Of a stretch of DNA of 34,905 nt, positions 29,483-34,905 are shown piece after piece; position 1 is the first letter of the stretch, and each line of letters begins with the position of its first letter. The translations under genes were made by a program, and so were the position numbers. The notes beneath the pieces are model-generated. The model was not told where the DNA came from, made no database searches, and saw only the letters and a program-made list of their open reading frames with translations. Location: contig JAGTRY010000030.1 in assembly GCA_018262235.1 (NCBI GenBank), positions 1 to 34,905 on the forward strand, written 5' to 3'. This DNA comes from Pseudomonadota bacterium. GTDB taxonomy: Bacteria; Pseudomonadota; Gammaproteobacteria; Burkholderiales; Rhodocyclaceae.

Positions 29483-30271
29483 TCAGGCAGGCTTGAGCAT
29501 CACCAGCTTGATGTGCTCCTGTTCCACCGGGCGTAGGGTGATTTGCTGATAGTGGATCAAGCCCCGGCCAGGATGCAGGAAACCGCGTTCGCCACCCTGG
29601 CGTTCCAGCACGTCATGCTGCTTCCAGAACAACGCGAAATCCGGGCTGGCCGTGGAAAGTTCGTCAACCAGGCGGAGCAGGGCGGGTTCGTCCAGCCGGG
29701 TGCGGCAGTCGGCGCGGAATTCGGCGGTGATGCGGCGCGCGCGGATTTCCCAGTCGATCAGGAATGTGCGCGTCTCCGGGCGCAGGAAAACGAAGCGCAG
29801 CATATTGGGAGCTGGGTCGCTTTCCGTTTGCTTTTGATCCAGCCAGCCGGTGAAAAGCCCTGCAGCGGCGACGTTCCAGCCGAGGATGTCCCAGTAACGC
29901 CCCATCAGGTAGGCCGGCACTGCAATGTCGGCGAGCAGGGCACGCAAGTGCGCAGGTGCCGCGTCGTCTTCCGGGCTGTTGGCTTGCGGATCGCGCCGGT
30001 CCGCCATCTCGAAGAGATAAGCGCGTTCGGAGCGGTTCAGGCGCAGGCTGCGGGCAAGCCGGTCGAGTGCATCGGCCGAGACATTGACTTCGCGTCCCTG
30101 TTCGATCCAGGTGTACCAGGTCGGGCTGATGCCTATGAGCTGCGCCATTTCCTCGCGCCGCAATCCCGCCGTGCGGCGGCGGCTGCCGCTGGCAAAACCG
30201 AAATCAGCGGGCTGACTGCGGCTGCGGATGACCTGCATGAATTCACCGAGTTCTTTGCGGCGTGTGTCCAT
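29483..30271 (-). CDS. XRE-family regulator with MmyB-like ligand-binding domain
   Basis: A 262-residue transcription factor. The N-terminal helix-turn-helix (about 33-92) reads RTAGLRREEMAQLIGISPTWYTWIEQGR, typical of the MmyB/PadR-unrelated XRE group common in GC-rich bacteria. The C-terminal domain (about 105-258) has MGRYWDILGWNVAAAGLF and FALFWKQHDV, the MmyB-like domain thought to bind a small hydrophobic ligand. The ATG at 30271 gives the family start but has no clear ribosome-binding site; frames opening further upstream add low-quality sequence. Such regulators usually control an adjacent divergent gene, here leuC, but leucine control by this family is not established. Confidence 0.85.
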   Translation of the reverse strand: MDTRRKELGEFMQVIRSRSQPADFGFASGSRRRTAGLRREEMAQLIGISPTWYTWIEQGREVNVSADALDRLARSLRLNRSERAYLFEMADRRDPQANSPEDDAAPAHLRALLADIAVPAYLMGRYWDILGWNVAAAGLFTGWLDQKQTESDPAPNMLRFVFLRPETRTFLIDWEIRARRITAEFRADCRTRLDEPALLRLVDELSTASPDFALFWKQHDVLERQGGERGFLHPGRGLIHYQQITLRPVEQEHIKLVMLKPA

Positions 30272-30428
30272 TGGCGGAGTTTTGGTTTGATGTTTGGAAG
30301 ATCCGTCCGGTAAAAACCGGAGCATCGAGGAATCGCACAGGATGGGGTCAATGAAGCCTTGCGGCAAATGACTCGGGATCTATCCTGAGTGATCGATCCT
30401 GTTAGTGCTGGTACTAGTATAAATGCTT

Positions 30429-32616: not shown

Positions 32617-33003
32617 ATGATTCGTGCAGAAAACCTTGCCGGCAAATATCAGGTGCAGTTCGGAAATGGAACAGTAACCGGAATCGCGGATACGGCGGCC
32701 GACAAGGGTGGGGCGGGCAATGGGTTCCGCCCGCACGAATTGCTGGAGGCAGCGCTGGCAAGCTGTACGGTCATGACCTTGCGCATGTATGCCGAAAAGC
32801 ATGGTTTCAGCTACGCAGGCATCGGCGTGAAAGTGGGGCTCGACCGGACCCGTCCGGAGCGTCCTGTATTTGAATGCTGCGTGAGTTTCCCGGCCGGCTT
32901 TCCTGAGGAACGGCGTGCCCGCATGCTTGAGATTGCTGGCTGCTGCCCCGTTCACAAGACGCTCGCGAGTACACTCGCTTTCAAGATAGATTCGCAGGGG
33001 TGA
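32617..33003 (+). CDS. OsmC/Ohr-family protein inside the leu operon
   Basis: A 128-residue OsmC-like protein. RPHELLEAALASCTVMTLRMYA carries the first redox cysteine (Cys50), and IAGCCPVHKTL the second (Cys110, with an extra Cys109 beside it). OsmC and Ohr enzymes reduce organic hydroperoxides with this cysteine pair, and YhfA-type relatives have unclear roles. The ribosome-binding site is weak, consistent with translation coupled to leuD (12 nt upstream). The ordering between leuD and leuB, with 27 nt to leuB, implies co-transcription with leucine synthesis. It might protect the oxygen-sensitive LeuCD cluster, but that is inference. Confidence 0.85.
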   Translation: MIRAENLAGKYQVQFGNGTVTGIADTAADKGGAGNGFRPHELLEAALASCTVMTLRMYAEKHGFSYAGIGVKVGLDRTRPERPVFECCVSFPAGFPEERRARMLEIAGCCPVHKTLASTLAFKIDSQG

Positions 33004-33030: not shown

Positions 33031-34092
33031 ATGAAAATCTGTGTTCTGCCGGGTGACGGCATTGGTCCCGAAATCATGGCCGAGGCGCTGCGAGTGCTGG
33101 AAGTGCTGCGCGGCGAAGGTCTGAAGATGGAATTTGAAGAAGGTTTGCTGGGAGGCTGTGCGGTTGATGCTACGGGGGATCCGTATCCGGAAGCAACCCG
33201 CAAGCTGGCTCGCGAAGCAGATGCTGTGCTGCTTGCTGCAGTGGGTGGCCCGAAGTGGGACGTGCTGCCGCGTCCGCAGCGTCCCGAGCGTGGCCTGCTC
33301 GGCATCCGCAAGGATCTGAATCTGTTTGCCAACCTGCGCCCGGCCATCCTGTACCCGGAATTGGCCAATGCTTCGACACTCAAACCGGAAGTGGTTGCCG
33401 GGCTGGATATTCTGATCGTGCGCGAATTGACCGGCTGTATCTACTTTGGCGAGCCGCGCGGGATTTCCGTGGAAGATGGCAAGCGCGTTGGTCGCAACAC
33501 CATGATCTACAACGAAGACGAAATCCGCCGTATCGGCCATGTTGCTTTCCGCGCCGCCCAGAAACGCAGCAAGAAGCTGTGTTCCATCGACAAGATGAAC
33601 GTGCTGGAAACGACCCAGTTGTGGCGCGACGTGATGATCGAAATCTCCAAGGAATATCCGGACGTCGAACTCAGCCACATGCTGGTCGACAATGCCGCGA
33701 TGCAACTGGTGCGTGCGCCGAAGCAGTTCGACGTGGTGGTCACGGGCAACATGTTCGGCGATATTCTTTCGGATGAAGCCTCGATGTTGACCGGCTCGAT
33801 CGGCATGCTGCCGTCTGCCTCGCTGGATGCAAACAACAAGGGCTTGTACGAGCCTTCCCACGGCTCTGCACCGGATATCGCAGGCAAGGGCGTCGCCAAT
33901 CCGCTGGCGACCATCCTTTCCGTCGCGATGATGTTGCGGTACAGTTTCAATAACGAAGCCAGTGCAGTCCGTATCGAAAATGCGGTCAAGAAAGTATTGG
34001 CTTTGGGCCTGCGCACCGGAGACATCTGGGAAGAAGGCACCAAGCGTGTTGGGACACGCGAGATGGGCGATGCGGTAATCGCCGCCCTGTAA
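33031..34092 (+). CDS. leuB: 3-isopropylmalate dehydrogenase
   Basis: LeuB oxidatively decarboxylates 3-isopropylmalate with NAD. The 353-residue protein begins [15 protein letters not shown]. It has [11 protein letters not shown], the [14 protein letters not shown] loop and substrate-site [37 protein letters not shown], the metal/NAD motif, follows. AAAGGA lies upstream of the ATG. It completes leucine synthesis together with leuCD here and leuA at the other end of the window. A Thr-rich leader frame starts 12 nt after its stop. Confidence 0.98.
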
Positions 34093-34104
34093 TCGGAAAA
34101 TGTG

Positions 34105-34227
34105 ATGCAACAGGACAGGAGCACCATCGGGTTGACGAACTTCCGCATTGCGGATGCCGTCGCTCGCCTGTCCGTTGCTGTTGCACTCACCACTACTACC
34201 CTGACGAAAAAAACCACCACGGTTTAG
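34105..34227 (+). CDS. Thr/Lys-rich 40-aa leader peptide upstream of asd
   Basis: The frame runs from ATG 34105 to TAG 34227. Its end reads [13 protein letters not shown]: 8 of the last 12 residues are Thr (ACC ACT ACT ACC ... ACG ... ACC ACC ACG) and two are Lys (AAA AAA). That composition is what is expected of an attenuation leader for a Thr/Lys-pathway gene, comparable in principle to thrL of enterics. The next gene is asd, whose product lies on the shared route to Thr, Lys and Met. The start is 12 nt after the leuB stop with a weak GGA, so translation may be coupled. The region 20 nt downstream contains alternative hairpins. A promoter within this gap is not evident. The peptide itself probably has no other role. 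Confidence 0.75.
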
Positions 34228-34246
34228 CCCTGTCACGCCGCTTTGT

Positions 34247-34292
34247 GTCTCCGCGGTGGCGGAGGCAGGCTAAAGTGAGCGGAGGCGGTTTT
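34247..34292 (+). promoter_or_regulatory. Mutually exclusive hairpins (candidate attenuator) before asd
   Basis: GTCTCCGC (34247-34254) can pair with GCGGAGGC at 34259-34266 (8 bp, one G-U, loop GGTG). It can alternatively pair with the exact second copy of GCGGAGGC at 34279-34286, which is followed by GG and TTTT (34289-34292). The two pairings exclude each other, as in terminator/antiterminator switches. An additional GCCGC upstream (34237-34241) could extend the second stem. The structure starts 20 nt after the leader stop codon and ends 18 nt before the asd ATG. Confidence 0.6.
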
Positions 34293-34310
34293 GGCGCAAA
34301 GGTAATCAAA

Positions 34311-34905
34311 ATGAAGAAAGTAGGGATTGTTGGCTGGCGCGGGATGGTCGGCTCGGTGCTCATGCAACGCATGCGCGAGGAGAACGATTTTGCCCTGATC
34401 GAGCCGGTGTTCTTTACCACCTCGAATGTCGGCGGCAAGGGGCCGGACATCGCTGGTTCGGTCGAAACCCTGAAAGATGCCAAATCCATAGAAGATCTGG
34501 CCAAGATGGATGTGATCATCACCTGTCAGGGCGGTGACTACACCAATGAAATCTTCCCGAAGTTGCGTAGCGCCGGCTGGCAAGGTTACTGGATTGACGC
34601 AGCATCCAGTCTGCGGATGAAGGACGACGCCATCATCATTCTTGATCCGGTCAACAAGAACGTGATCCAGGATGGATTGGCCCGCGGCATCAAGAATTAC
34701 ATCGGTGGGAACTGTACGGTCAGCCTGATGCTGATGGGTTTGGGTGGTCTGTTCCAGAATGACATGATCGAGTGGGCAAGCTCGATGACTTATCAGGCTG
34801 CATCAGGGGCCGGTGCCCCCAACATGCGCGAGTTGATTGCGCAGATGGGCAAGATTCACGACTCGGTTGCCGATCTGCTTGCCGATCCGGCTTCAACGAT
34901 CCTTG
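34311..34905 (+). CDS. asd: Aspartate-semialdehyde dehydrogenase (3' end outside window)
   Basis: Asd reduces aspartyl phosphate to aspartate semialdehyde with NADPH, the branch-point step for Lys, Thr, Met and diaminopimelate. The 198 codons in the window read [18 protein letters not shown] (NADP-binding GxxGxxG-like), [27 protein letters not shown] and then [12 protein letters not shown]. The active-site nucleophile is Cys135, as in E. coli Asd. The C-terminal half lies beyond the right edge. AAAGG lies upstream of the ATG. A Thr/Lys-rich leader frame and a candidate attenuator precede it. Confidence 0.97.

Follow-up and report, generated by a model that had tools for sequence, protein, structure and literature searches.

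A leader frame rich in threonine, lysine, and isoleucine codons with competing RNA stems upstream of asd: a candidate attenuator in Uliginosibacterium and relatives

We analyzed contig JAGTRY010000030.1 (positions 1 to 34,905, the whole of which is called the window here) from a member of the genus Uliginosibacterium (labelled g1). Between leuB and asd, the gene for aspartate-semialdehyde dehydrogenase, lies a 40-codon frame rich in Thr and Lys codons, followed by an RNA segment that can pair with either of two copies of one octamer. The asd product makes the common precursor of Lys/diaminopimelate, Thr, Ile, and Met. Because relatives keep both the frame and the competing folds, this arrangement very probably enables the cell to adjust asd output to its supply of Thr, Lys, and Ile. 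An earlier reading, made from the sequence alone (the sequence-only reading), had proposed an attenuator here. Its Thr/Lys leader for asd and its exclusive stems, which covary, stand, whereas termination as the output does not.

The frame is real and lies where that reading had placed it (Table 1), with 12 nucleotides (nt) separating its ATG from the stop codon of leuB. Among 973 stop-terminated open stretches of 14 codons in the window, the end of this frame is the only one with at least eight Thr codons, and there is none among 12,021 such stretches in 77 named, leaderless asd loci (L034 to L110). Frames of the same kind and in the same place were identified in 26 loci in total. Over these leaders, Thr, Lys, and Ile make up 71% of the last 14 residues versus 16% of the remainder of the peptides. 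The last-14 totals are Thr 158, Lys 55, Ile 46, Leu 11, and Met 1 of 364; outside the last 14, Thr accounts for 50, Lys for 18, and Ile for 28 of 597 residues. By genus, the leaders of g1 use Thr/Lys, those of g8 mainly Ile/Thr plus Lys, and those of g55 and g202 mix all three. The codons had been matched to the Thr/Lys/Met branch. The match holds for Thr and Lys and fails for Met, and Ile must be added: Ile codons are part of the signal and, in one genus, its main component. The enriched residues are the end products of the asd pathway, minus Met, and Leu, the product of the upstream genes, is scarce. What stands upstream of this biosynthetic gene is a short frame rich in codons for the end products of its own pathway.

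For the distribution of the leader, we read asd upstream regions from genomes (96, comprising 70 of 79 genomes with an asd match and 26 further loci), from named records (80, the best 80 of a longer list), and from g202 (19). Matches to asd occur in 242 of 249 genomes of the family, and the best loci alone were read. The leader is present in all eight sampled genomes of g1, in both sampled asd loci of g13, in the six g8 genomes with an asd match (a seventh lacks one), and in all three sampled asd loci of g55, which belongs to a different family. It also occurs, judged by codons alone, in seven of the 19 asd loci read in g202, a third family in which 20 of 22 genomes have an asd match and one fragment without the gene start was left out. 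Three of the 80 named regions have the leader; their contigs are ones already represented in these counts. The remaining upstream regions read yielded no leader, and leuB and asd are just 16 to 117 nt apart in 17 leaderless relatives. We read the additional frames that the leader scans flagged as ends or off frames, either of leuB or of other frames.

The leader had been placed inside a leucine operon transcript; a position behind leuB, as in the window, is not essential. One g13 locus (L007) keeps the leader without leuB in the 1.5 kb upstream, and in the named g13 contigs a different gene precedes the asd leader. In g202, an extended -10-like box (TGnTAnnAT) lies 6 to 7 nt before the leader ATG in all seven leader loci (L204, L207, L209, L210, L212, L217, and L219), and was not found in the 330 nt before asd in any of the 12 leaderless loci. 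Judging from this box, the g202 leader may have a promoter of its own that gives a nearly leaderless transcript. A tree of 75 Asd fragments requires at least three changes of leader label, so gain, loss, or transfer of the leader are each possible, and the patchy presence in g202 offers natural pairs of loci with and without it. As separate observations, a roughly 100-residue, hydrophobic-looking protein with no Pfam match is encoded before leader and asd in g13 (L032, 1915-2214; L033, 1879-2187), and the Asd of Psychromonas sp. SP041 (L035, 2501-3094), which has no leader, groups on a long branch within the genus of the window. Its record is labelled gammaproteobacterium, and the placement possibly reflects transfer or tree error.

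Downstream of the control codons we identified conserved, mutually exclusive RNA helices. The octamer GCGGAGGC occurs twice (segments B and C), and all eight bases of each copy can pair with GTCTCCGC (segment A), which begins after 19 bases beyond the leader stop codon. This confirms the two exclusive hairpins of the sequence-only reading, and the comparison of close relatives proposed with it came out in its favor: the Thr run is kept in all eight sampled members of the genus, and both stems pair, A:B in 71 of 72 cells and A:C in 72 of 72. None of 300 dinucleotide shuffles of this stretch reaches as good a score for a 5' arm shared by two 3' arms. The strict form with exclusive 8-bp stems is present in 12 of the 19 leader loci of g1, g13, g8, and g55. 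The A/B/C stems, A:B included, covary, and they lie outside the leader frame. Two interleaved helices of the kind that make an H-type pseudoknot are both kept with compensatory change; their simultaneous formation is a prediction. The folding energy of the whole leuB-asd gap (z -2.07; 9 of 200 shuffles as stable) and of its 3' part (z -1.33; 16 of 200) is by itself unremarkable, so the case rests on conservation.

The frame itself is also structured. A hairpin, P1, covers the leader start codon with its 5' arm and stops just before the Thr run with its 3' arm; RNAalifold of the eight genus members recovers P1 pairs with changes on both sides. In the same alignment, three pairs of a small hairpin at the frame end, P2, are unchanged in all eight. 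Small inverted repeats, judged by eye, are seen at the frame end in other genera. When the frame plus 9 nt (which includes P2) is compared with synonymous resamples, the RNA of all 19 leaders of g1, g13, g8, and g55 is more stable than the resampled mean (z from -1.5 to -4.8), and in 13 of them at most 5 of 500 resamples are as stable; just one of the seven g202 leaders reaches that level.

Covariance models address how far this structure extends. A first model was built from the eight g1 sequences. With filters off, on 11 full loci of g13, g8, and g55 (39,468 bases), it matched over its full length at the homologous site of 10 loci, missing L176; its eight best matches are all at that site, and some opposite strands matched as well, as near-palindromes do. 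With strict filters on 395 genomes, it matched no genus beyond that of the window. It revealed no second copy in the genome of the window, where the next match has an E value of 7.8. A second model, from 17 sequences with none from g202, matched 12 of 13 chosen genomes (E ≤3.5e-8), a set that includes its own source genomes. Run with strict filters on 399 genomes of the order, it returned four known leader genomes and two marginal matches; the output leaves unspecified which other known leader genomes this sample included. One marginal match (G493, E 0.047) adjoins genes other than asd and was discarded. The other is in the leuB-asd gap of a g202 genome, downstream of a frame that ends FTKKVTTITT, and a scan of that family gave three matches, all within g202. 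The second model matches all seven g202 leader loci (L204 over half its length) and not one of the 12 leaderless ones; three of the seven had led to the genus, and four are fresh. It gave no match in 86 leaderless loci. In a class sample, 1 of 369 matched, the genome of the window only. No Rfam 15 family reached its gathering threshold in the window or four relatives; the stretch itself has a single sub-threshold match (E 9.6), on the other strand.

How the folds act on asd is indicated by where segment C lies. The 3' end of C falls 15 to 26 nt upstream of the asd start codon in all 19 loci (segments picked by hand), which places one of the exclusive helices at the asd ribosome-binding site, in most loci adjoining it and not covering it. 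The eight bases after C hold from zero to five T over these loci, with zero to two in the six g8 loci. This T content and the position of C argue against a conserved intrinsic terminator and place a stem beside the initiation region. Translational attenuation is accordingly the favored output, and we consider it fairly probable that a ribosome delayed on Thr, Lys, or Ile codons exerts it, possibly through a pseudoknot. With segment Z free, C would be held by A (the pseudoknot) or by Z (a nested state). If a ribosome were held up at the end of the frame, it would cover Z, A:B would form, and C would open. This mechanism needs Thr, Lys, or Ile codons near the frame end, and the last five codons include at least one of them in 26 of 26 leaders. 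We infer the direction of the switch from end-product logic. The reverse, repZ-like reading is unlikely: stems adjoining ribosome-binding sites tend to hinder, and A:B covaries as well.

Several results weigh against translational attenuation of this form. In equilibrium folding, masking a ribosome footprint did not open the asd start region consistently across the 19 loci; the sole strong change was in L175, where a ribosome 10 to 12 codons before the stop lowered the value from 13.9 to about 3 kcal/mol. The masking had no effect on the opening of C across 26 loci. The first codons of the control run are also too far from Z.

The same leader and sensing could instead act through Rho-dependent termination or mRNA decay in the gap between leader and asd. 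All of the covariation fits such an output, and the gap provides 70 to 109 bases between the leader stop codon and asd in the 26 loci. This is short for Rho loading, however, and the kept distance from C to the start codon points to initiation, so we regard this output as rather unlikely. Classical transcription attenuation of the thrL type, as first proposed, would assign the role of intrinsic terminator to A:C or A:B and that of antiterminator to the remaining hairpin. The combination of a leader and exclusive stems is indeed classical for this type, GG-TTTT follows C in the window, and L007 has five T in the eight bases that follow C. The U-tract is nevertheless unconserved: T runs in the gap reach four in the window and at most three in the 18 relatives, and the G+C-rich hairpin with a conserved U-tract that such a terminator calls for is not seen. 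A terminator scan of the window found no terminator here, and C keeps its distance beside the asd ribosome-binding site. On the unconserved U-tract and the negative scan we reject an intrinsic terminator, and transcription attenuation as in thrL is unsupported and improbable. A reading in which the frame, kept in 26 loci, codes for a small protein that has a function of its own, with incidental stems, is very improbable: the N-terminal halves are unalike between genera by eye, the end is conserved just in its Thr/Lys/Ile composition, and the stems covary outside the frame.

The arrangement combines features of several known systems. The thrL attenuator of the thr operon in enteric bacteria has a Thr/Ile-rich leader, exclusive stems, and an aspartate-family target, all of which the asd system shares. 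The asd system differs in adding Lys codons, in targeting asd, in lacking a conserved U-tract, and in having stems that end beside the ribosome-binding site. In translational attenuation of erm and cat genes, a stalled ribosome covers one segment and a downstream stem at the ribosome-binding site opens; the logic proposed for the asd leader is similar. In the LEU element upstream of leuA in Actinobacteria, the run of Leu codons itself pairs with the Shine-Dalgarno box (PMC1262725). Both systems have an amino-acid leader frame, a candidate pseudoknot plus an alternative hairpin, and structure reaching the Shine-Dalgarno region, and they differ in phylum, gene, and amino acid, and in that the asd pairing uses separate segments after the stop codon (PMC1262725). 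The asd RNA motif of Streptococcus, compared by name only, is likewise an RNA element named after asd, in another phylum. Among titles and the opening parts of abstracts, we found no leader peptide for asd in Betaproteobacteria; the survey of proteobacterial attenuators by Vitreschak et al. (2004) might mention one. The system described here may be an amino-acid leader with a pseudoknot-like switch at the ribosome-binding site outside Actinobacteria. If the proposed control is true, the summing of Thr, Lys, and Ile codons in one leader, with Met and Leu left out, would reveal which branches are allowed to control the common step.

Table 1. Features of the leuB-asd region, in window coordinates
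Feature	Position	Strand	Evidence or remark
leuB, 3-isopropylmalate dehydrogenase, upstream gene	33031..34092	+	Pfam Iso_dh, E 1.1e-137
Leader frame, 40 codons (ATG at 34105) then TAG (34225-34227)	34105..34227	+	Counterparts at this site, 26 loci in total
Hairpin P1 within leader frame	34101..34187 (limits approximate)	+	Fold and RNAalifold pairs
Control codons, last 14 of leader	34183..34224	+	Composition and chance count
Small hairpin P2 at frame end, AAACC/GGTTT	34211..34225	+	Fold
Segment Z, immediately 3' of leader stop codon	34228..34246	+	Pairs with B side, can pair with C
Segment A, GTCTCCGC	34247..34254	+	Pairs with B or C
Segment B, GCGGAGGC	34259..34266	+	Pairing partner of A
Segment C, GCGGAGGC	34279..34286	+	3' end 24 nt from asd start codon
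GGTTTT, proposed U-tract after C	34287..34292	+	Unconserved
AAAGG, likely asd ribosome-binding site	34298..34302	+	Sequence; purine-rich core similarly placed in relatives
asd, aspartate-semialdehyde dehydrogenase, truncated by window end	34311..34905	+	Pfam Semialdhyde_dh, E 2.9e-26; Semialdhyde_dhC, E 7.9e-7

The genome of the window has a single asd match. Among neighboring genes, an OsmC-like gene lies between leuD and leuB (32617-33003), and a gene for an MmyB-like helix-turn-helix regulator is located upstream of leuC on the opposite strand (29483-30367, minus strand).
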